A DNA stretch of 64,000 bases from Phycisphaerae bacterium (GTDB taxonomy: Bacteria > Planctomycetota > Phycisphaerae > UBA1845 > Fen-1342), in NCBI GenBank assembly GCA_017999985.1, contig JAGNKU010000004.1, positions 1-64,000 of the forward strand. The letters are read 5' to 3'. Below, one piece after another: positions 2,225 through 43,011 of the stretch. The first letter of the stretch is position 1. Each line of letters opens with the position of its first letter. A program made the position numbers and the translations under genes. The notes under the pieces are model-generated. The model did not search any database and had not been told where the DNA came from. It was given only the letters and a program-made list of their open reading frames with translations.

Positions 2225-5200
2225 CTACCTTTCAGTCCCTGGAGCTCCGTCGGTGGTTTCCTGGCCGGGCGCGATCCGGCGCGGGCGGCTCTGCGGATCG
2301 CCGGCTGCAGGCGCCTGGTGAGCCACACTGGTACCGGCCACGTTGACCGCGTCCTCAGGAATCTGCCCCATGCCATAGGCGGCCAGGCCAATCGCACCCG
2401 GCGCGGGCAGGTACACGGCGGTACCGGGGCCAGCCGCGCGGACACGCACCCAGGCCACCCGCGTCCACTCGCCGCTGCCGGTCCCAGGTTCCAGCGTGGA
2501 GCCGCCAACATCTTCAAGCACAGAGCCGGTGGGGCCGCCGCTGGCGAACAGTGGCCACAATGCGCCGACCTCAACCAGCTCCGTACGTGCCGTGTGCGTT
2601 GGCGGCAGCTCCACGTCGACATAGACCGACGTCAGCCCCTGCCCGCCGACGGTGTCGTCCCGGATCCAGACTTCCACGTAGTACGACTCACCGACCAGCA
2701 CGCGGGCCAGAGGCGTCGGCAACTCCGCAGTCGCGTCCGCGCTGGACAGATTGGCCACCGGCACGAGTGCTACGCTGACCGCCGCCGCGCGGTCGCGCAG
2801 CCCGCCCTGTACGCCGCACGTACGGCAGGCCGGGAACGCCAGCGCCGGGTCAAGGATCGACTTCAGCCACGCCGTCGCGAAGTAGGACAAATCGCCCACC
2901 CCGATGAGCGCGTCGCAGTCGAAGTCATAGCTGGCGTCGGCTGGCGGCACGGTCTGCAGCCACGACGTCGCAAACAGCGAGAGATCACCTACGCCCACCA
3001 CGTCGTCGCCGGTCCCCGGTGGGTCGATGTCGTACACCAACCGGGCGGCGAACATCTGGCCGGCTTGATCCGCAGTGAGCGGGCCATAGCTGCGTGACGG
3101 TGGGTCGAACAAGAAGCCGTCGCGGCAGGGCGTGACCGTCTCGGGCTGGCCATACGGCAGCGCCAGCTCGTAGTGGCCGTTCGCGTCGGTCGTCGCGCAC
3201 AGGCCGCTGTTTTCGCCGCAGACCTCTACGTCCGGCAACGGCGCGCCGCTCGCCGAGGTAATGTCTCCTGCAACCGTGACGGGCGTCTCGCACTCGTCCG
3301 GAATGCCGTTGCTGTTGTCGTCCAGACTCGTGCCCGACGCAATGTCGCAGTCGTCCGGAATCAGGTTGATATTGCAGTCCTGGCTCGTGCCGTTGGCGAT
3401 ATCGCAGCTATCGGCAACGTCGTTGCCGTTGCAGTCCACGGGCGGTGGGGCCTCGTCAGCCCCGATGTCCGGCGGGCACAACGGGGCACGGGGCTGACCG
3501 TCGAAGTCGGCGGCCAAGGCCGTGTGGCTCGTCAGCGGCGCGGGCGTCGCCGCGTCAATGGCCGGCGAGCCATTCTCGAGGTGGTAATTGCCGTCACCGA
3601 GTTTCAGCTCCAGGAAGCGCACCGAGATGAAGTTGCCACCCTCGTCCAGCACCGCGGCGGTACGCAGCGTATTCTGGTATTCCGCGACCACCAGCGGGTC
3701 AGCGGAAATGTTGCTCGCGTCATAGCCCGAGGGGTCGGTCAGAAGGCAGTACTCCGGTTGCAGTTGGCTGCCCGGCACACCGCCGGCCACGTGCAGGTCC
3801 CAGTACGGCGGATCCCGCGGCACCAGACCACCGATGAAATCGTTCAACGTACCGTCCCACGAGAATGAACGGTTGTGCCACACAGTGTTGTTGACCAACG
3901 TGGGATCAGAGTAGTCTGGGTCGATCAGATTGCGCAACGCAGCGCCGTGTTGCGCGCCCGCCAGACCGGCAGGTTGCGGGTCGGAAACCAGGAGGTTGCC
4001 GGGCGGGAACGCAACCGACGCGGTGGCCGTGGAGTCGTTGTTGATGATCGTGTTATGAATGATGTTGGCCCGGGCCACATCTTGAAGCGCGATGCCACCG
4101 CCCTGATACGCGGACACGTTGTTCACGATCACGTTGTTGAAGATGTTGAGGACGTTCCACTGGCTGGGATCATTGGGCTCGGCCGCGACGTCGGCGCCGT
4201 TCACGCCAACGGCCCGGATTCCGCCGCCGCTGCCCGAGCCAGCCAGGTTGCCCATGAGCAGATTCGAGTTGATGGTGACAGAGCCTGTGCCGGGGCTCAG
4301 TCCGTCCGCGGCGAATTGCGTACCGACGTACACGCCGCCACCCTCGCCGCCGATGGGGCCGCCGTAGAAGATCTCGTTGAACGCGAAGGTGTTACGGGCA
4401 ATGGTGCCCTCGTCGCTGAGACCGATATGCGCCAGGCCACCCCCGACGTTTCGCGTGAAGCACCCGCACACGAAGTTGTCTTCGAAGCGGTACGTGTCGG
4501 AGCCGCTGAAGATCGTCACCCCCCCGGCGCCGTTGATTCCCCCGTTTTTGGCGATGATGTTGTGGTGAATATACACGTGGTCATTCAGTCCGTTGTTGTC
4601 TGACACGCCACACGCAATGCCGCCCGCGTAGGTCCCCTGGTTATTGACGATCTTGTTGTTGCTGACTTCGAAGTCGTCCGCGAACGCCGCCAGGAAAATA
4701 CCTCCGCCGGACACACCTCCCAACACCGTGAAGCCGTCGATCTGGCCCGGCCCGCCGGTGTCGTCACCCTCGCGGCCGTGGACCAGGATGCCCGGGGCCT
4801 CGGTGGCCTCGAAGAAGTCGCCGCCGATCGGCACGAGATCCCCGGCGGCGATCAGGGCGTTGATCTTGTTGTGCCACTGGATGATGCGCTCGGAAGGCAC
4901 CGGACTGGCGTTGATGAACGTCGAACCGGCTCCGCTGCCCTGGAGCTTCACGTTCTTCCAAACGATCGGGTTCTCGCGGTACGTTCCGGGCTCGACGATG
5001 ATCAGCGTGCCCGGTGCTGCGGCATCAATGGCCGTTTGAATGGGGGCGGGTGTTGACACCGGCGGCTGAGTCACGTGCACCACGTTGCCGCAGTCGCCGA
5101 CGTGCAGCGTGATGCCGATGGGTGATGTGAAACCGGTGTCTTCCCGCGTGATCAGCAGTTCTCCCGTGCTGATCAGGTCTGTGTCGACGAGTGCGACAAT

Positions 5201-23123: not shown

Positions 23124-25817
23124 TCATTGGGGAGATTGAGCGGCATCGAGCAGCGCGGTGACCCGCGCCGCTGTCTGCTGCACTTCGAATTCGCGCTGGC
23201 CACTTCGTTTTGCCAGGACGCCAAGGGCGGTGCGCAGCCGCGTGGCGGCTTCGTCGCGCTGCCCGGACAGCGCCAGGCATTCGGCGAGTTGAAGCTCGGA
23301 CAGCGTCGAGGGAACGGACTCGGGGGCCAACTTCTGGCACTGAATCTCCAAGCTGTGGCGCAACAGCTCTTCAGCGGCAGGATACTCTCTTTTGTCCGTG
23401 AGCACGCTACCCAGCGCGGCGAGCGCGTCGGCGATGTCGGGATGCGCATCGGGGAGTCGGGCCTGCAAGATGGCGAGTGCTTGGCGCGCATGGGTCTCCG
23501 CCTCGGTCGTCTCCCCCTGAGCGCGATCGATCCTGGCAAGCAGCACAAGCGCCGTACCCACTTCAGGATGATCTGCACCCAGTCCGCTGCGAAACAAGGC
23601 CAGCCCCTCGGTAGCCAAGGGCGCGGCGCCAAGCACATTCCCTTTCTTGAACAGGATACCGGCCAAGTTCAGCAGGCTCGAAGCGATATCCGGATGCTGT
23701 GGGTGAAGCAGTTTTCGGCGAATTTCCAGAGCAGCGCGATGCAAGCGTTCTGCCCCATCCAGATCGCCGCGCGCCGTCATTAGCAGTGCCAAGTTGCTCA
23801 TGATGGTGGCCACGAACGGATGTTCGGCGCCTTGGGTGCCCTGCCAGGCACCCAGGCCCTGTTCATAAAGCGGCTCCGCTGCGGCGTAGTCGCCACGGGC
23901 ATACAGCACGGTGGCCAGGCTGTTCAGCGTCCTGGCGACGTCCGGATGCTGTTCACCGAGGAGGCTCTTGCGCATTTCCAGCGTGCGCCGTAGGAGGGTC
24001 TCTGCCCGCTCGTACTCCCCTTGGTTGAGCAGGCAGACGGCGAGGCTGTTGAGTGCATCGGCGATGCTCGTGTGCTGCTCGCCCCAGCGCGTCGTACGCA
24101 GCGCGAGCACCTGCTCGTACAGCTGCGCCGCCTGCGCGAAATCGCCCCGCGCGTTGCAGACCCGCGCCAGGCTGGCCAGGGCGTCGGCCCGTGCTACCGC
24201 GGCGCTGGCGCCAGTGGGGTAGCGTGCCAGGGCCTGGCGCAGCGTGCGCTCGGCCTCGGGGTATCGGCCGTTCTCAATCAACACGTCGCCCAAGTCCTTC
24301 AGGACGCCGGCCAAGGCGGCCGCGCCGGCCGCGTGTTCCTGGCGCAGCGCGACACTTTGGCGAAGTTGTCGCTCGGCGGCGTCGTACAGCCCAAGGCGAC
24401 GGTAGGCCTGCCCCAGAGTCTGCTGCACATCGGCAAGGATCTCGGGCTGACCGCGCAATTCGTCGGTGGCGCGAGCGGCAGCGCGGTCCAGCAGCTCGCG
24501 GACCGGCACCGTGTGACCCGATCGCTCGGGGTCAATCGAAGTCAGCGTCTGCTGCAGAAACTGGCTGGCTTGCTGAGCGGCTCGCGCTTCGGACGCGGCG
24601 CGCCCGTACAGCCACGCCATGCCCACGCTGGCGACTACCAACACGAGAAGCAGCGCGCCGAGCAGCGCCGCGGGCGCCTTGTGGCGCGCGACAAGCCTAC
24701 CGAGTAAGTAAAGCTGACCGGGTGGACGGGCCCGAATGGGGAGTTTTGCGAGGTAGCGCTCTAGATCTTCGCGCATGGCAGCCGCGCTGGCGTAGCGGCG
24801 CTGTGGTTCCCTTTCCAAGGCTTTTCGCGTGATGGTATCCAGGTCGCCGCGCAGCCGCCGGTCCACGATGCCGGGCGGCACCGGTTCATGCTCGCAGATC
24901 AGGCGCAGCGCTTCGCGCAGCGAACAGTCCGCGATCTCGACGGGCCGGTGACCGGTGAGGAGCTGGTAGAGGATCACGCCGAGTGCGTACACGTCGGAGC
25001 GCGCATCCACGGAGCCCGAGGTGCCGGCCAGCTGCTCCGGGCTCATGTAGGCGAGCGTGCCAAGGAGCTGACCGTCCTGCGTCATTTCGCCCACCGCGGG
25101 GAGCCCGTCGCGGGTTTCCCGCGCAATGCCGAAATCCAAGACCTTGGGCTGCCCAGCCGCATCCACAAGGACGTTCCCCGGCTTCAGGTCGCGGTGAATG
25201 ATGCCGCGTTCATGCGCGTGTTGGACCGCGTCGCAGACGCGGGCGACCAGCCGAACCCGCTCGGCGAGGCTACATTGCTGGCCCGTGACGTATTCCGTGA
25301 TGGGAATGCCCTCGACGTACTCCATCACGAAGTAGGGCAGTTGCGCGCGGCCGATCTGGGCCGTGCCGGCTTCGTAGATGTGGGCGACCCCCGGATGGTG
25401 CAGGCGACCCAGCAGCTCGACTTCGTGCGCAAAACGCTGTCGCGCCGCGGCCGCCGGCAGGCCCAGCCGGATGAGTTTGAGGGCCACACGCCGATGCGGC
25501 TGGTCCTGTTCGGCCTCGAAGACGATCGCCATCCCCCCCTCCCCGAGTTTTTTGATGATCCGGTAGTGACCGATACTCTGGGGTAGCTGGCTCTCGATCT
25601 CCTCTGGCGCGGCGGCCAGTCCCAACCACGCCTGAAGGCGCGCCGGGTCGCTCAGCGACGAAGGCTGGGCATCAGCCGCCAGCATCTCCGCGACGCTGTT
25701 GCGCATTTGAGGGTCGCGTGCGCTGAGTCGAAGCAGGTATTGGGCCTGACGCTCGGGCGGGAGTTGGCAGGCCCGCAAAAAGGCGTGTTTGACTCGCTGG
25801 TAGCGCTCAGGCGTCAT
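23124..25817 (-). CDS. Membrane Ser/Thr protein kinase with TPR repeats (pair 1)
   Basis: 897 residues; ATG 25817 overlaps the 3' end of the sigma factor gene by 11 bases. PknB-type kinase: glycine loop GEGGMAIV near residue 92, Lys in VALKLI, HRDLKPGNV, DFGIAR, SPEQLAG and [16 protein letters not shown] membrane helix near 390-410 (ALLGALLLVLVVASVGMAWL) is followed by about 450 residues of tetratricopeptide repeats, many ending PEAERTLRQAL or EYERAETLLRR. In the usual topology the kinase is cytoplasmic and the TPR array is outside or periplasmic. A short N-terminal region before the kinase (TPERYQRVKHAFL) is shared with pair 2. Inferred to act on, or upstream of, the co-encoded sigma factor. 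Confidence 0.9.
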   Translation of the reverse strand: MTPERYQRVKHAFLRACQLPPERQAQYLLRLSARDPQMRNSVAEMLAADAQPSSLSDPARLQAWLGLAAAPEEIESQLPQSIGHYRIIKKLGEGGMAIVFEAEQDQPHRRVALKLIRLGLPAAAARQRFAHEVELLGRLHHPGVAHIYEAGTAQIGRAQLPYFVMEYVEGIPITEYVTGQQCSLAERVRLVARVCDAVQHAHERGIIHRDLKPGNVLVDAAGQPKVLDFGIARETRDGLPAVGEMTQDGQLLGTLAYMSPEQLAGTSGSVDARSDVYALGVILYQLLTGHRPVEIADCSLREALRLICEHEPVPPGIVDRRLRGDLDTITRKALEREPQRRYASAAAMREDLERYLAKLPIRARPPGQLYLLGRLVARHKAPAALLGALLLVLVVASVGMAWLYGRAASEARAAQQASQFLQQTLTSIDPERSGHTVPVRELLDRAAARATDELRGQPEILADVQQTLGQAYRRLGLYDAAERQLRQSVALRQEHAAGAAALAGVLKDLGDVLIENGRYPEAERTLRQALARYPTGASAAVARADALASLARVCNARGDFAQAAQLYEQVLALRTTRWGEQHTSIADALNSLAVCLLNQGEYERAETLLRRTLEMRKSLLGEQHPDVARTLNSLATVLYARGDYAAAEPLYEQGLGAWQGTQGAEHPFVATIMSNLALLMTARGDLDGAERLHRAALEIRRKLLHPQHPDIASSLLNLAGILFKKGNVLGAAPLATEGLALFRSGLGADHPEVGTALVLLARIDRAQGETTEAETHARQALAILQARLPDAHPDIADALAALGSVLTDKREYPAAEELLRHSLEIQCQKLAPESVPSTLSELQLAECLALSGQRDEAATRLRTALGVLAKRSGQREFEVQQTAARVTALLDAAQSPQ

Positions 25818-26394
25818 CACTGCGGTCCTTGCGCAACTCGGCCCCCAGCCACGCGCGCGCCGTTCGCCATTCACGTTCGATGGTGGCCTTGGAGGACCCG
25901 ATGACCTTGGCGACCTCGTCGACCGTTAGCCCGGCAAAAAAGCGCAGTTCAACGATTTGGGTTTGCAGCGGGTCGAGCGCCGCGAGCCGCGTCAAGCACT
26001 CGTGCAGATCAAGCAGATCGATTTCCACAGCCTCGTCGGGTGAAATCAAGCCTTCGAGCGCGACTCGGCCGCAACGCCGGCCACGTTTCGCCGTGCGTCG
26101 GGCACGTACATGATCCACAACGATCTGCCGCATCGCCTTGGCGGCGACGGCAAAGAAATGTCCCCGCCCTTCCCACCCACCCGCAGGCGAGCCAGCCAGC
26201 CGCAAGAACGCCTCATGAACAATGGCGGTCGCGTTCAGCGAACGCTCACCGCCGCGCTCGCGCAGGTAACTCTGCGCCAGTGCGCGAAGCTCCTGGTAGA
26301 CTAGTGGCAAGAGCTCCCGGGCGGCCGCCTGGTCGCCGCGGCTGACCAGCTCGAGGCAGTGGGTCACGTCAGGATTGGGTCGCGGTGTTCCCAT
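25807..26394 (-). CDS. ECF-type RNA polymerase sigma factor (pair 1)
   Basis: 195 residues from ATG 26394; the longer frame to 26565 has no support. Sigma-2 region: LLPLVYQELRALAQSYLRER and NATAIVHEAFLRLAG; sigma-4 region: LDPLQTQIVELRFFAGLTVD with the helix-turn-helix TVDEVAKVIGSSKATIEREW. The sequence type is the planctomycete/acidobacterial ECF subgroup often linked to PknB-like kinases. It has no anti-sigma factor next to it; instead its stop overlaps the kinase start (25807-25817), so the pair is translationally coupled and the kinase may regulate it. Confidence 0.9.
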   Translation of the reverse strand: MGTPRPNPDVTHCLELVSRGDQAAARELLPLVYQELRALAQSYLRERGGERSLNATAIVHEAFLRLAGSPAGGWEGRGHFFAVAAKAMRQIVVDHVRARRTAKRGRRCGRVALEGLISPDEAVEIDLLDLHECLTRLAALDPLQTQIVELRFFAGLTVDEVAKVIGSSKATIEREWRTARAWLGAELRKDRSDDA

Positions 26395-26591
26395 CGTCCA
26401 TCTGCCACGTCGCACCCCGGGCAGCAACCATTTTACAGTGCTGGCCGCTCCGACAGGGCGCGGTTCGCGGCGGCCACTCGCCTCTTCGGAACCGCCGGGG
26501 CGACTTCCCGAGTCATTTTTGATGGGGTCTGGGCCTTGTTGACGTGATTGTCCTTGGAGCAGCAAGTCTACGCAGGCTTGGCGTATAAGTG

Positions 26592-35443: not shown

Positions 35444-37543
35444 TCAGGTCGCGCTCCGCACGTCCAGATCGGCCCGGAGTTCGCTCTCCTCGTGTCGGTG
35501 ATAGACTGTGCGGTGCGGAAACGGGATTTCGATGCCCAGTTCATCGAAGCGCTTCTTGATCCGCCGCAGCAGCTCGCGTTTCACCGTCCACTGCATCATC
35601 GGCCTGGTCTTGATGAAGAACTTGATGAAAACGGCCGAGTCACCAAGTTGGTCCACGCCCAGCATCTCGGGACTCTCGAGGATCAGTCCCCGGAAGTTCG
35701 GGTCGCGTCGCAGCTCCTTGGCCAGTTCAACCAACTCCTGCATCACGCGGTCCACGTCCTCCTTATAGGCCACGCCGATCTCGAACAAGGCCCGGGACCA
35801 GCCGTGTGTCAGATTGCTGACGGTGGTGATGTGGCCATTGGGGATGAAATGCACGACGCCTTCGAGGTCACGCAGCACGGTCATCCGGAGTGTGACGCGC
35901 TCGACCAGGCCAGCCGTGTCGGCGATCTTCACGACGTCGTTCACGCCGTACTGACTCTCCAGCAGGATCATGAACCCGGTGAAGTAGTCGCGGATCAGGT
36001 TCTGGGCACCGAAGGCAACCGCCAGACCCGCGACGGCCGCGCCGCCCAGGAGGGGCACGATGTTCACGCCGAGTTCCGCGATAATCATGAGAATCCCAGC
36101 GGGGATGATGGCCACGCGCACTGCGTTGTGGAACACGTCGAGCAGGGTCTTCGCGCGGTTCTCGCGTTCCTCCTTCGTGCCCTGCTCGCCCCGTCGCGCG
36201 ACGAGTGCCACGACACGCTTCTCGACCAGCCGCGCCACCCAGAGGATTGCGATCATGCCGGCGATGATCCCCAGTACTCGCGGGCCGTGAACCATGCACC
36301 AGCGCAGGAGATTCTGCGGCGACAGCGGGTTTTCGAGTGCTTCGACCTTCTTGCGCGCCGACTCGGCCTCGCTCTGTTTTTGTTCGGCCGCCTGCAGCGC
36401 GGCGATCTGGTCGCCCTGAAGCGTGCTAAGTTCGGACTGTAGCTGGCCGATGCGATCCGTGCGCTCGCGGATTTCCGCGCGCGCTGCGCTCAGCCGCTGC
36501 CGGGATTCAGCCACATTCTGCCGCAGTTCGCCGAGCTCGGCCTGTGGTACGCCCTCCTCCCATTTGCGCTGCAGCTCTTCGTAAAGCGCACGCTCGGTCT
36601 CTTGCGCATTGTCGGCCTGCCGGCGCGCGGTTTCGAGCAACTTGTGCTCCAGCTCGATATTCTTGTGCAGCGCGCCGACGCGTTCGGTGATCGACTGGGC
36701 GTCCTGCTCGGCCTCCTGGGCCTCAGCCTCCTTCTGGGTCGCCTGTTCCCGGGCCCTGCGGAGCTCCTTGCTGACCGGGGCGGCGGACTGCGCGGCCGGC
36801 GGGTTTGGCCCGGCGTCGGCAGCCGAAGGGCCAGCGGGCGTCTCAGGACTCGCTGTCGGGGCCGTGCTCACCCCCGCCGGTCCGGGCGGCGTTTCTGTCA
36901 CCGGTTGGGCGCGCTTCCGGTCCTCGGCAAGAGGACCGGCTGGCGGCGTGATCGGCGCTGAAGGCGTACTCTCGGCTGCGGCGGGTGGAGCGACCGTTGG
37001 TTGTGTCGACGCCGACGGCTCGGTTTCGCCCTTCAGTTTCTTGAGCGCGTCCACGTCCTTCTGGATCTTCTGCTCCAGCACCGCGAACTGCTGTTGAAGC
37101 GTCTTGCGCTCCTTGATCGCCAGATCGAAACGGTCCTTGGCCAGTCGCCATTTCGCCTCGAGAGCCGTCGCATCCGTTTCACGCGCGGTTACGGGCTCCT
37201 CAGCCCCGTCGGCGCGGAGGTCCTGCGACTTCCTCTCCTGTTCGAGCTCGCGGTCCAGGGAGGTGAATTCCGTTTCGGCCTGCGCGTATTCTCCTTCGGG
37301 GTCGTCCAACCTGGCACGCAAACCGTCCAACTGCGCGCGCGACTCGTCGACGGTGCGCTGCAGGCGGGCGATCCTCTCGGCATCGCTGAGTGGCTGCGCG
37401 CGCGCTTCGACGGATTCCTGTGCCACACCCGTCCCGGCCGGCTGCGTTGTGGCCACCGGCGAGCTGGCCGGCTCTTGTGCGCGCCCCGCCGCAGCGTGGA
37501 GCAACAGAGGCAGCAGAGACAGCGACATGATTCGGTGGGTCAT
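35444..37543 (-). CDS. MscS-family mechanosensitive channel with long periplasmic coiled coil
   Basis: 699 residues from ATG 37543 (GAGGG upstream). Signal peptide MTHRIMSLSLLPLLLHAAAG, then roughly 370 residues of charged coiled coil broken by a Pro/Ala/Thr-rich linker near 200-265. Membrane helices near 415-440, 465-485 and 500-520; the last, LLGGAAVAGLAVAFGAQNLI, is the pore-lining TM3 of MscS. The beta domain YGVNDVVKIADTAGLVERVT and VHFIPNGHI follow, then the alpha/beta C-terminus. It opens under membrane tension and releases solutes on osmotic downshock. The long exported N-terminus resembles MscK/MscM-type channels and may contact peptidoglycan. Confidence 0.88.
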   Translation of the reverse strand: MTHRIMSLSLLPLLLHAAAGRAQEPASSPVATTQPAGTGVAQESVEARAQPLSDAERIARLQRTVDESRAQLDGLRARLDDPEGEYAQAETEFTSLDRELEQERKSQDLRADGAEEPVTARETDATALEAKWRLAKDRFDLAIKERKTLQQQFAVLEQKIQKDVDALKKLKGETEPSASTQPTVAPPAAAESTPSAPITPPAGPLAEDRKRAQPVTETPPGPAGVSTAPTASPETPAGPSAADAGPNPPAAQSAAPVSKELRRAREQATQKEAEAQEAEQDAQSITERVGALHKNIELEHKLLETARRQADNAQETERALYEELQRKWEEGVPQAELGELRQNVAESRQRLSAARAEIRERTDRIGQLQSELSTLQGDQIAALQAAEQKQSEAESARKKVEALENPLSPQNLLRWCMVHGPRVLGIIAGMIAILWVARLVEKRVVALVARRGEQGTKEERENRAKTLLDVFHNAVRVAIIPAGILMIIAELGVNIVPLLGGAAVAGLAVAFGAQNLIRDYFTGFMILLESQYGVNDVVKIADTAGLVERVTLRMTVLRDLEGVVHFIPNGHITTVSNLTHGWSRALFEIGVAYKEDVDRVMQELVELAKELRRDPNFRGLILESPEMLGVDQLGDSAVFIKFFIKTRPMMQWTVKRELLRRIKKRFDELGIEIPFPHRTVYHRHEESELRADLDVRSAT

Positions 37544-37828
37544 CCGTTCAGCCCTCACAAGATCGCAGCGACTCAGAGGCCACGTGCTCCAGGCTGGCCG
37601 GCGTGCACAGCGCGCGTTCAGCCGGCGGTGGCGCACCATTGGGCATGAACGCCGGCTCACGAGCCCGTGCGGCGCGAACCACCCGCTTGCCGCCCCCGCC
37701 GCGTGTTGGACACTTGTGCTGTGATACCGTGCTCAACTCCTTGAGTTTCAGTAGGTCCTGCGGACGCAACGCGCGGTGCTGGACGGCTGTGCCGACGGCC
37801 GCACTTGTCCAGTCCCTTCGGATGTCGC

Positions 37829-39328
37829 TTACTGGGGCGCGGGCGGCGTTGTCTCCGCCGAACGGCGGGTGGCGTCTGCCGCTTTTGGCAGGGCAGCGCT
37901 TACGATGGCGGCCAGCCGTTGCAACATCGCGCGCATTAACGTGCGCTCCCACTCATCGAGCTTCGCCAGTTCCCGACGGACGCCCTCCTGCAACGCCGAG
38001 GGCGTCCCGCGCAGGACGCGTTTCCCCTCCTCCGTGATGGCAGCCTGCACCGTGCGGCGATCGGCGCCGCCGCGCGTCCGCGTGGCAAGACCGCGCTTTT
38101 CGAGTCGGTCGAGGATGCCGGTCAGTGTGGGTTGGCTCATCTGGAGTGCCCGGGCCAGCTCTCCGACCACGGTGATCCCGAGTCGATCCAGCTCCTGCAG
38201 CGTCGTGAACTGGGGTCCCGTCACCTGGGTCCGCAGCACGTTGGCGGCCGCAGCAGTGTCGCGCGTGGCAGAGCCCCCGCGCCGAATCAGCGGCTCACCC
38301 TGTCCCAGAAGTGCCTTGCGATCCATGCGAATCGAACTCACGCCGCTCGCAGCCAGCTCCGGCAGCTGAAAATCTAACGTCGCCAGCATTTTGGCCAAGA
38401 TCCGTTCCAGCCCACGAGCGTTGGTGCGGTTGCGAATCGCGATGTCAACGATCGCGTCGAAGGCATCATCGGATAGCAGCAGTTCGACCCCGTGCTGCGC
38501 GAACCACCGGCGCTGCCGCACCAAGGGCGATTCCTCCGTGTCGCGCAGGATGCCCACCAGGTCGTCCCGACTCAGCGATGTGACCGTCGAGATCACCGCG
38601 AACCGTCCCAGAAACTCCGGGATGAAACCGTATGCCTCCAGGTCCTGCAGCTCACCACGCGCGAGCAACTCGTCGTCACTCAGGGCCGACGGATCCTCCT
38701 CGCAGACGCGGAATCCGAACGTGGACCCCGCGCTGATGCGACGCCGAATCAGTTCCGGCAGGCCGCTGAACGCCCCGGTACAAATGAACAGCATCCTGGA
38801 CGTGTTGAGCGTGCATCCGGATACCGAATCGAAGCGAACCTCGACCGGGCAACCATCCAATGGTGCCAGCAGGCTCGTCTGCACGCCCTCGCCGGCGATG
38901 TCCCGAGAATTGACCTCCTGACGACGGACCTTGTCGATTTCATCGAGGAACACGATGCCGCGCTCGGCGAGCTCCGTGCTGCCGCGCGTCGCCGAAAGCA
39001 ATCGGCGAAAAACGGACTCGAGATGTTCACCGACATAGCCGTTCTCGACCAGACTCGCGGCGCTGCCGAAGGCAACCGGCACGCCAAGATGCTCGGCGAG
39101 CGTGGTCACAAGGAAGGTCTTGCCCGCGCCAGTCGGCCCCAGTAACAACACGTGCCGCTTACCGAACGGAGATAGCGAGCCTGGGTGGTTTTCGCCATAC
39201 GCGAGCGCGAGATAATGGCGGTAGACGCACGACGCGAGGTCGCGCTTGGCCCGCGCCTGTCCGCGTACAAAGCGATCGAGGTGCTGCACTATCTCCGCGG
39301 GAGTCGGCAGAGTCTTCCACGCCGGCAT
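37829..39328 (-). CDS. ClpX-like AAA+ unfoldase fused to a MarR-type DNA-binding domain
   Basis: 499 residues in one uninterrupted frame. ATG 39328 is chosen (AGGGG eight bases upstream); ATG 39370 lacks a site. ClpX part, residues 1-350: LPTPAEIVQHLDRFVRGQ, Walker A GPTGAGKT (64-71), pore loop GYVG (97-100), Walker B IVFLDEID (125-132), GEGVQTSLL, IPEFLGR (236-242) and sensor 2 ARGLER (304-309). The N-terminal zinc domain and RKH loop of true ClpX are absent; an FGF triplet (204-206) may correspond to the ClpP-binding IGF loop. MarR part, about 366-478: FTTLQELDRLGITVVGEL, recognition helix MSQPTLTGILDRLEKRG and wing TRGGADRRTVQAAITEEG. MarR proteins are ligand-sensing repressors. I infer a DNA-bound or DNA-releasable remodeller. 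No clpP gene is near. Confidence 0.88.
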   Translation of the reverse strand: MPAWKTLPTPAEIVQHLDRFVRGQARAKRDLASCVYRHYLALAYGENHPGSLSPFGKRHVLLLGPTGAGKTFLVTTLAEHLGVPVAFGSAASLVENGYVGEHLESVFRRLLSATRGSTELAERGIVFLDEIDKVRRQEVNSRDIAGEGVQTSLLAPLDGCPVEVRFDSVSGCTLNTSRMLFICTGAFSGLPELIRRRISAGSTFGFRVCEEDPSALSDDELLARGELQDLEAYGFIPEFLGRFAVISTVTSLSRDDLVGILRDTEESPLVRQRRWFAQHGVELLLSDDAFDAIVDIAIRNRTNARGLERILAKMLATLDFQLPELAASGVSSIRMDRKALLGQGEPLIRRGGSATRDTAAAANVLRTQVTGPQFTTLQELDRLGITVVGELARALQMSQPTLTGILDRLEKRGLATRTRGGADRRTVQAAITEEGKRVLRGTPSALQEGVRRELAKLDEWERTLMRAMLQRLAAIVSAALPKAADATRRSAETTPPAPQ

Positions 39329-39673: not shown

Positions 39674-42415
39674 TCACGGTTGGAACACCGACTCCACTTC
39701 GCTCCCACTCTCGGTTGCCCGCCGCACCGTCGCTCGGAGCGCTGCCAGCTTCGCTCGCCAGTCGGCGGCCTTCAGCGCATACCCGCACTCCGGGGCCGCT
39801 GCGTTCCACTCCTGGTAGAAGCTCAGCATCGCGCTAGCGACTTGGTGGGCTAGGTCGGAATCAAGCCCGGTGGTTTGCTCGGCCGAGTCCGCCGCCGCCA
39901 GGAAATAGGTCTCCGCTTCCGCGTACTTGCGGCGCTGCGCCAGACACATGCCCAGCCCCAGCGAGGCGCGGGTCCGAATGAGAATCTCCCGCGAACCGCT
40001 GGCCTCCGCAACATTCTGCCGGAAGGCGTCTTCGGCTTCGTCCAGACGCCCGCGATGCTGCAGCACGACCGCCAGCACGTCGCGGGCATAAAGATTGTTG
40101 AAATGACCGGGCTGGAACGCGCGCTCGTAACCCGCCAAGGCGTGCCGCGCCAGGTCTTCGGCGCGCTCCAAGTCGGTGTCCAGGCGCGCCAGGATGCGGG
40201 CCAAGCAGCGCTCCGCGCGATACGTATCGAGGTTCTCATCACCGCTGAATCGTTGGTGGCAGGCCAGGGCCTTCTCGGCGACGTCTCGCGCCTCAGTCAA
40301 CTGGTCGGCCTCACCCAACGAACGCGCCAGATAGACCATCTGGTAGGCGGTGAACGGATGGTCCTCACCGTACTCGGCTATGTAACCGTCCACCACCGCG
40401 CGGCTCGCCTCGGCGGCCTCGCGGTAACACCCCAAGTCGTAGAGCGCGTCAGCGGCACCTTCGGCGGCGCGCAGGTACAGAAGCCGCGATTGTGGACGAA
40501 GGGCCAAGACGCGCATGACGTCGCGGTTGATAGCCAGGGACTCGGCGGCGCGGCCGATGTCGCTGAATGCCGACGCAAGCTCGAAACGCAGTTCGACCAC
40601 CTGCTCGTCGTATTCCTCGCGCGCAGCGGCCGCGGCGCTGGAGAGCTCGCGCAGGAATCCCACCGCTGCTTCGAAGCGCCCGTCGGCTGCGAGCGCGCGG
40701 GCCACGTGGGTGGCGAAGGTGCGGGTCATGACGTCGGCGGGCCCGCGCGCCGCCCGAACGGACTCGTAGTTCGGGCGGGCCAGCGCCAGGGCCTCGACGG
40801 TATGGCCGCTCTGGAACAGGGCGTACGTCAGTCGCTCGACGCTCGCGAGTGTGGCCTCCGCCTGAGGGCCCAACTGCGTCCCCTGAAGCGCGACCGCCTT
40901 CTGCAACTGCGTGACCGCCGGCTCAAACTGGCCGCTTTCCGCCAGTGTCTTGCCGAGGACGTAACGCAGCTCAGCCTCGACGAATGGGTCCAGCTCCGCC
41001 TCATCTAGACGCCGAACGGCCTCCTGCAGTAGATCCACGACCGTCGCAATCTCTCCGTCTTGGCCGGCATAGAACGTCCTGGTTCCGGCCGACGAGCCCC
41101 CGGCGGTACGCCGGCCACTCAGTGGGTTGGCGGAACCAAAAACATCCGTGAGACACGCGAGCACGCGCTGCTTGCGTTGCTCGGCGACCAACGCACGGTC
41201 GCGCTCTTGTGCGGCGCGGTGCTGCGCGACCAGCGCGATCGCCAGCGCGATCGTGAGCGTCACGAGCAAAGCGGCCCCAAACGCCACCGGCACACGGTAG
41301 CGTCCCAATGTCTTGCGCAACACGTACATCGCGCTATCGCCTTTGGCCTCGATGGGTTCGCCCGCCAAGTAGTGGCGGATGTCGTCGGCCAGGTCGGCGG
41401 CCGACTGGTAACGCCGGTCGCGCTCTTTGTGCAAGCACTTCAAGACAATGGTTTCCACTTCGTCGTCGATCTGTTTCGCGACCATGCTGGGGCGCACCGG
41501 CTCGGCTCGCAGGATCCGGTCCAGCACGTCGCGCAGGCCGCCCGTCACGTCGTATGGGAACTTCCCGGTCAGCAGTTGATAGAGAATGACGCCCAGCGAG
41601 TACACATCGGTGCGCACGTCGATTTTACCGGGTTGGCCTTCGGCTTGCTCGGGGCTGGCGTATGCCAGCGTCCCCTGAAACACACCGGGCTCCGTGAGAT
41701 CCGTGTAATCCGCGCCAGGCTCCACGATGCGCGCCAGGCCGAAGTCAAGCACCTTCGGCTGCCCATCGGCCGTGACCAGGATGTTCGACGGCTTGAGATC
41801 GCGGTGGATGACGCCGCGCTGGTGCGCATAGTGCACGGCGTCGCACACACGCCGAAACAGCTCCAGCGTGTCGCGCGGCGACAGCTGGTGGTCCCGCACA
41901 TAGTCCGTCAATGCGGTGCCAGCCACGCGCTCCATCGCAAAGTAGTACCAACCTTCCGGACTGCAGCCGGCTTCGTGAATGGCGGCGACGCCCGGATGTG
42001 CGAGCCGCGCGAGGGCTTGGCCCTCGCGGTGAAACAGGCGCGGCGTAAGCTCATCGAGGTAAGGCAGTGCCCGCATGACCTTCAGTGCGACGGTCCGGCG
42101 AGGGCAATCCTGCTCCGCCTCATAGACCACGCCCATCCCGCCGTGACCGAGAATCCCCTGAATCGTGTAGCCGCCGATGTGCGTACCGGCGGGAGGTGGT
42201 TCCGGGGCGGTGAACCAGGATGATCCGCGGGCGGACGACGGCAATTCAAGAAAACTGCCCGCGCGCGAGTCGCTGGCCAGGAGGTCCTGGAGCTCGGCTG
42301 CGATGGACGGGTCCTCCGCTTCTGCGTCCGCGAACAGCACTTGGCGCTCCGCGGGCTCGAGCTCGAGCGCCGCATGGTAGAGCTCGCGAATTCGTTCCCA
42401 GCGCTGGCTGTCCAT
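39674..42415 (-). CDS. Membrane Ser/Thr protein kinase with TPR-like repeats (pair 2)
   Basis: 913 residues. Short N-terminal helix region ([20 protein letters not shown]), kinase from about 82 to 350: glycine loop GHGGMGVV (90-97), Lys112, HRDLKPSN (204-211), DFG (224-226), SPEQAEG and [16 protein letters not shown] membrane helix at about 376-398 is followed by roughly 500 residues of helical TPR-like repeats ([41 protein letters not shown]). The architecture is that of the kinase at 23124, but the sequences have diverged well outside the kinase core. The gene starts 26 bases after its sigma factor gene, so they form an operon. Confidence 0.9.
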
Positions 42416-42441
42416 GCACTCCTCGAATCCTCAGCCGACAA

Positions 42442-43011
42442 TCAGCCCGCGTCCATCTCGCGCAGCAGCCACGCCCGTGCGAGGCGCCAGTCCCCGCGGA
42501 CCGTGCGCTCGGAGACCTCCAGGAGCTGCGCGGTTTCCGCTTCGGACAGCCCGGCGAAGAACCGTAGCTCGATGATCTGCACCTGGCGCGGCGCGATCTG
42601 CTCGAGCTTCTGCAGCGCGTCGTTAAGCGCGAGCAGGTCGTGGGCGCTGTTCTCATACACGACAAGTTGATCCTCGAGCGGCAACGGTTTCTGGCCGCTA
42701 CCGCGTTTGATTCGCCGGCGCCCGCGCGCGTAATCGACGAGGATGCAGCGCATGACCGCGGCGGCGGCGCAGAAGAAGTGCCGCCGGTTCTCCCACTGTG
42801 GCGGGGATTTCCGTGCGAGGCGCAGCCACGCTTCGTTAACGAGGGCGGTCGGCTGCAGGGTGTGCCGCGCGTCGGCGCGCAGGCGGTCGTTTGCCAGCAT
42901 GCGCAGCTCGTCGTAGACGAGCGGCAGGAGGCGCTCCACGGCTTCGCGGTCGCCCTCGGCGACGCGCCGCAGGACGGTCGTGATCTCGCCGGGCAACGCA
43001 GTCATCTGCAC
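42442..43011 (-). CDS. ECF-type RNA polymerase sigma factor (pair 2)
   Basis: 189 residues; ATG 43011 or the second Met at 43005. Sigma-2 region LLPLVYDELRMLANDRLRAD and PTALVNEAWLRLAR; sigma-4 region IAPRQVQIIELRFFAGLSEA with TAQLLEVSERTVRGDWRLAR. It belongs to the same subgroup as the sigma factor at 25807 and has the same kinase partner arrangement, so the two pairs are paralogous modules. A TATAAT box lies 60 bases upstream. The divergent gene at 43225 is 213 bases away. Confidence 0.9.
   Translation of the reverse strand: MQMTALPGEITTVLRRVAEGDREAVERLLPLVYDELRMLANDRLRADARHTLQPTALVNEAWLRLARKSPPQWENRRHFFCAAAAVMRCILVDYARGRRRIKRGSGQKPLPLEDQLVVYENSAHDLLALNDALQKLEQIAPRQVQIIELRFFAGLSEAETAQLLEVSERTVRGDWRLARAWLLREMDAG

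Follow-up and report, generated by a model that had tools for sequence, protein, structure and literature searches.

Results

The fusion gene and its neighbourhood

The DNA analysed was a window of 64,000 nucleotides from a Phycisphaerae bacterium. Its reverse strand carries a gene in which a ClpX-type AAA+ motor is joined to a MarR winged helix in one uninterrupted frame (Table 1). An in-frame ATG at position 39328 provides an alternative start that yields a protein of 499 aa; this is also the end of the gene as given in the first-pass annotation, which had described such a fusion. Profile searches matched Pfam AAA_2 to residues 74-259 (1.6e-20) and MarR (PF01047) to residues 384-441 (2.2e-12, above the cut-off). 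In an AlphaFold monomer model of the 499-aa form, a low-confidence linker lies between two well-folded parts. The ORF, the Pfam and NCBIfam matches and the motifs described below thus bear out a single frame containing both domains, and the observation of a ClpX-MarR fusion is confirmed.

Table 1. Coordinates of the fusion gene, its parts and its neighbours in the window, and the related loci beside Roco genes.
Feature	Position	Strand	Basis or remark
ClpX-like AAA + MarR fusion, whole ORF, 513 aa	37829..39370	-	ORF, Pfam/NCBIfam
ClpX-type AAA+ large and small domains, residues ~18-365	38276..39319	-	profiles, alignment, AlphaFold model, motifs
Linker and short helix (RDTAAAANVLR) at the joint	38222..38275	-	in common with the G001 relative to residue 383
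MarR winged helix and next two helices, residues 384-492	37895..38221	-	Pfam, alignment, predicted fold
MscS-type mechanosensitive channel gene, downstream	35444..37660	-	Pfam/NCBIfam
Ser/Thr kinase-TPR gene, upstream	39674..42415	-	Pfam/NCBIfam
ECF sigma factor beside the upstream kinase	42442-43011
Roco-adjacent loci L061/L091, L064/L101, L093, L096, L097			Planctomycetota and Verrucomicrobiota

An operon linking the fusion to the MscS gene was rejected: at the MscS orthologues of eight relatives there was no adjacent ClpX-like gene and no convincing MarR match. Because it is unlinked to ClpX-like or MarR genes in these relatives, MscS is probably not part of the system. Upstream, the kinase-TPR and ECF genes form a pair (39674-43011) that resembles another at 23124-26565 in the window (33% and 45% identical); given this paralogous pair, the kinase and sigma factor have no specific link to the fusion. 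PADLOC returned only generic AAA or HTH matches, and a search for promoter and terminator consensus sequences found none.

Integrity of the frame and constraint on its two halves

Third-position GC is high along the whole gene (0.73-0.83), overall GC has no step at the joint, and the joint is situated deep inside the contig. The parts of a standalone MarR that are missing from the fusion, helix alpha1 and the conserved tail, were sought in other frames on either side and not found. With the frame open, the composition even and the missing MarR parts in no other frame, we conclude that the gene is a true single-frame fusion and not a frameshift. The first-pass annotation had named a frameshift between neighbouring genes as the finding that would overturn it, but in relatives the two genes are not adjacent: the nearest relative of the motor has no MarR gene nearby, and the standalone MarR genes occur in other contexts.

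Evolutionary rates were estimated as dN/dS (NG86). The AAA half gave ~0.25 against its relative in the same-family genome G001, and the MarR half gave ~0.31 against a paralogue in its own genome, each value being an average over both branches, including the unfused one. Judged by these ratios, both halves look to be under constraint.

The motor half compared with canonical ClpX

The NCBIfam clpX models matched residues 18-363 at 1e-79 to 1e-83. The scores fell well below the equivalog cut-offs, at 281 versus 359 bits for NF003745 and 266 versus 371 bits for TIGR00382. The model of the AAA module (mean pLDDT of 89.6) was closest to solved ClpX structures such as PDB 6wsg and 6wrf (Z of 34-38, ~40% identity). 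In sequence, identity of the motor to canonical ClpX is 36-39%, and to a group of ClpX-like proteins from Planctomycetota and Verrucomicrobiota it is ~45%. Its own genome also encodes a canonical ClpX (35% identical to the motor), an HslU-like protein and two ClpP proteins.

All the motor motifs claimed at the outset (Walker A and B, the GYVG pore loop and sensor 2) were found intact. In the numbering of the 513-aa protein, these are Walker A GPTGAGKT (78-85), pore loop NGYVG (110-114), Walker B IVFLDEIDK (139-147) and sensor 2 NARGLER (317-323); FGF (218-220) and the arginine-finger region PEFLGRF (251-257) were also recognized. The protein begins ~20 residues ahead of the AAA module, and the reported absence of the ClpX zinc domain was upheld, as neither a C..C..C..C motif nor an RKHP motif is present. 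The fusion shares with ClpX the large and small AAA+ domains, the Walker motifs, the GYVG pore loop, sensor 2 and an xGF tripeptide at the position of the ClpP-docking loop; unlike ClpX, it has no zinc-binding domain and no RKH motif, carries GRF in place of GRL and a MarR domain at its C-terminus, scores under the curated ClpX cut-off and lies in a separate clade of the tree.

The RKH loops of ClpX contribute to governing substrate recognition, and the I268L substitution in E. coli ClpX already impairs ClpP binding (PMC7112951). At the aligned ClpP-docking (IGF) position, an xGF tripeptide is retained across the clade of the fusion. Pairing of the fusion motor with ClpP is therefore possible as judged from this tripeptide, though its first residue in the fusion is F and not I.

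A zinc-less ClpX-like clade with exchangeable tails

Neither zinc domain nor RKHP motif was present in any of the 15 clade members compared, the fusion included, and all 15 canonical ClpX proteins had both. In the tree, the fusion and all other zinc-less rows formed one clade of 16 apart from canonical ClpX (support 96/99), and this group recurred in 200/200 bootstrap trees. The idea that the motor is a truncated ClpX was rejected because it belongs to this distinct clade. The first-pass annotation had tied the loss of the zinc domain to the fusion; this does not hold, as the whole related clade is without it. Members were found in Planctomycetota and Verrucomicrobiota, and a 97-residue fragment from G001, 63% identical to the fusion, also falls inside the clade; the G001 gene is truncated at its 5' side by the end of its contig.

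Most other members of the clade terminate in a conserved domain of ~95 residues (WWE.FE...EFF.AYVYSNTDNIQANLHYLDY), predicted with a pLDDT of 95 to comprise five helices, which matched nothing in Pfam and no fold in the PDB. The C-terminal extensions of the fusion and of its clade relatives begin at the same place. The five-helix proteins belong to the same motor clade as the fusion, have likewise lost the zinc domain and the RKH motif, and have their tail domain where the fusion has MarR. The five-helix domain is common and not universal in the clade: one member (L053) has a different tail and the G001 protein has only a low-complexity tail. It was not found in the fusion, in the genome of the fusion or in close relatives.

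The same five-helix domain ends a second P-loop ATPase family (L098, L099, L100, L102, L104, L105, L107, L108 and L110), which occurs in Bdellovibrionota/Deltaproteobacteria, Planctomycetota and Verrucomicrobiota. Judged by eye, we take this family to resemble the VirD4/TraG-type coupling proteins of conjugation. Because it is found on two ATPase families, the five-helix domain appears to behave like a portable adaptor.

In five loci, the ClpX-like gene with a five-helix tail directly adjoins a large gene encoding an LRR-Roc-COR (Roco) protein (Table 1). Pfam confirmed Roc and COR in two of these loci, one of which also has TIR; the remaining loci were assigned by homology. Several contain one to four genes of the FGE-sulfatase fold. 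The arrangement has the appearance of a conflict or signalling operon not yet described; the fusion gene, in contrast, has no Roco or FGE neighbours. The open-access literature searched yielded no paper on zinc-less ClpX proteins with Roco neighbours, and the arrangement may still have been described.

Other divergent or broken copies were encountered. In L092, a second ClpX-like gene is present as a fragment of 87 aa (3602-3865) upstream of an intact copy, between FGE-fold genes, which suggests duplication and decay. A very divergent ClpX-like protein of 406 aa (L036:2922-4142, minus strand; G011:C28), 35% identical to the AAA part of the fusion and with no obvious zinc domain, occupies a long branch of its own in the tree. 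A broken ClpX-like copy from the same genome (L035:3160-4023; G011:C4) is 62% identical to the fusion over ~110 residues and runs into a short stretch that looked integrase-like by eye; the region contains repeated similar genes and may be a mobile island.

The MarR half and its standalone relatives

The nearest kin of the MarR half are standalone regulators of one planctomycete subfamily, with winged helices 42-55% identical to that of the fusion; one of them, at 54%, is a paralogue in the same genome. The MarR homology starts at TGPQ and follows directly on a segment (residues 370-383) that the fusion has in common with G001. The description of this half as a full MarR winged helix was correct for the winged helix, which is complete; the MarR protein is incomplete, as alpha1 and the conserved tail are absent. 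In the predicted fold of the 499-aa form, a helix of ~10 residues (358-367) stands in place of alpha1, before alpha2.

The winged helix-turn-helix has a DxR wing (PF01047, predicted fold), with the recognition helix at residues 412-427 and the wing, GGADRRTV, at 434-441. Most residues invariant among nine standalone MarRs are kept, including the DRR arginines of the wing. The departures are L to F after TGPQ, and F to V, L to R and M to I in the last helices. The dimerization domain of MarR proteins, formed by alpha1, alpha5 and alpha6, is not intact: alpha1 is gone and the interface carries substitutions. The standalone proteins thus share the wing and recognition-helix motifs of the fusion and differ in having alpha1 and the conserved tail and no ATPase. 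With the DNA-contacting parts kept and the dimer-forming parts eroded, the AAA ring probably now supplies oligomerization in place of the MarR dimer domain. As alpha1 and residues of the dimer interface have been lost or altered, control by a ligand also appears weaker than the first-pass annotation had proposed.

At six loci (L070-L074 and L076), the standalone MarR gene is divergent from or adjoins an osmoprotectant-type ABC transporter and a conserved gene of ~270 aa. The transporters were identified by similarity among the loci and by eye, and the loci likely represent an osmoprotectant regulon of planctomycetes. The usual neighbours of this subfamily are the sole basis for an osmotic-stress reading of the fusion. 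With respect to operators, no motif was common to the upstream regions of the fusion gene and the standalone MarR genes, and palindromes were at chance level. The sequence GACAATTGTC occurs upstream of the fusion gene and is not in common with the standalone MarRs.

Recurrence

The first-pass annotation had looked to recurrence of the same joint in related genomes, and the search did not return a second ClpX-MarR protein. None was present in the 60 nearest genomes, the 114 genomes of the order, or samples from the class (397 genomes) and the phylum (392 genomes), these sets overlapping. Searching genome contigs with the fusion protein as query found no relative. Phage, plasmid and viral collections contained no ClpX-MarR fusion, and an origin in such elements was rejected: matches were only at the level of canonical ClpX, under 60% identity, and none spanned the fusion. 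The open-access literature searched contained no paper on a ClpX-MarR fusion, although absence there does not prove novelty. The nearest published mention, in a survey of conflict systems (PMC8195603), is of a Clp-like AAA+ protein carrying a bacterial Death-like domain.

Discussion

The reading we favour, as a possibility that falls a little short of probable, is that the protein is a ClpX-like unfoldase of the zinc-less clade whose five-helix tail was swapped for a MarR winged helix and which acts at DNA. In one lineage only, the usual C-terminal domain of the clade would have been replaced by a winged helix from the type of MarR whose standalone relatives often adjoin osmoprotectant transporters. 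The AAA subunits would assemble into a ring, presumably a hexamer, carrying several winged helices on flexible linkers. These may position the motor at MarR-type operator DNA, where it could pull apart or remove proteins bound close by and possibly pass them to ClpP, of which the genome has two genes. For this reading, the AAA module folds as ClpX with all catalytic motifs, and the changes to the winged helix lie mostly in the last helices. It also draws on the place of the fusion in the zinc-less clade, the two ClpP genes and the xGF tripeptide, the retained wing and other invariant residues, the dN/dS values of both halves and the low-confidence linker between folded parts. Against it, the fusion is known from one genome, the first IGF position has changed from I to F, and no operator was identified. 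No close relative has the same joint from which selection on the fused form could be read, and the dN/dS values average over unfused branches. The first-pass interpretation is partly supported. A fuller form of the favoured reading, in which a ClpX-family unfoldase gained its MarR domains by a swap of adaptor tails and is brought by them to promoters to strip or degrade DNA-bound proteins, is tentative and, taken whole, rather doubtful.

The leading alternative is a neutral or degenerate accident: in a gene family that is labile, a ClpX paralogue already without zinc domain and tail would have gained a piece of MarR by illegitimate recombination, the MarR part being without a role or serving only to stabilize the protein. 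We consider this somewhat unlikely. The fusion is a singleton among the 114 genomes of the order, and its MarR half has neither alpha1 nor tail. The gene is labile in the family, as the G001 relative is an AAA module with only a low-complexity tail and the G011 copy is a broken fragment. However, the winged helix is well folded in the model, the DNA-contacting invariants are kept, dN/dS is low and the entire frame of 513 aa is intact.

According to another explanation, the MarR half is a protein-protein adaptor, for dimerization or the capture of substrates, that binds a paralogous standalone MarR, which the motor disassembles or degrades with no tether to DNA. The 54%-identical paralogue in the same genome would provide such a target, and the presence of the clade's usual C-terminal domain on a second ATPase family is what one would expect of an adaptor. 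However, the dimer-forming alpha1 is missing, the interface helices are changed, and the part that was kept is the DNA-contacting residues, which makes this explanation improbable.

In several DNA-binding proteins of the AAA+ class, a winged helix follows the AAA+ domain at the C-terminus. RuvB, Orc1/Cdc6 and NtrC-type activators likewise combine an AAA+ motor with a C-terminal DNA-binding domain, a winged helix or HTH. On this precedent, the protein could be a transcription regulator whose ATPase serves only for oligomerization and nucleotide sensing, as in AAA+ transcription factors, with no unfoldase activity. Those proteins belong to other AAA+ clades, whereas the fusion has a motor of the ClpX/HslU type, which retains features of a translocating machine (GYVG pore loop, Walker A/B, arginine finger and sensor 2); we regard this alternative as most improbable. 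Finally, an assembly or sequencing artefact that joined two genes would suit occurrence in a single genome, but it is scarcely credible and was rejected, given the clean single frame deep in a contig, the even composition, the absence of alpha1 and tail from other frames and the fact that the two genes are not neighbours in relatives.

The Clp-like protein with a Death-like domain (bDLD3; PMC8195603) is also a Clp-type motor with an added small domain, in the context of a conflict system; the added domain of the fusion is instead MarR.

Substrate choice by ClpX normally relies on the zinc domain and on separate adaptors. A clade without zinc domain and RKH loop, and with exchangeable C-terminal domains, shows a second way of addressing the motor. 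The clade also draws attention to a broader group of ClpX-like/Roco gene pairs, apparently not described so far, that resemble conflict or signalling systems. If the favoured reading is true, the MarR fusion would be an unfoldase targeted to sites on DNA and, in the fuller form of that reading, a kind of ClpXP-type remodelling with a DNA address; it would open to experiment the question of whether motors of the Clp type work directly at promoters.
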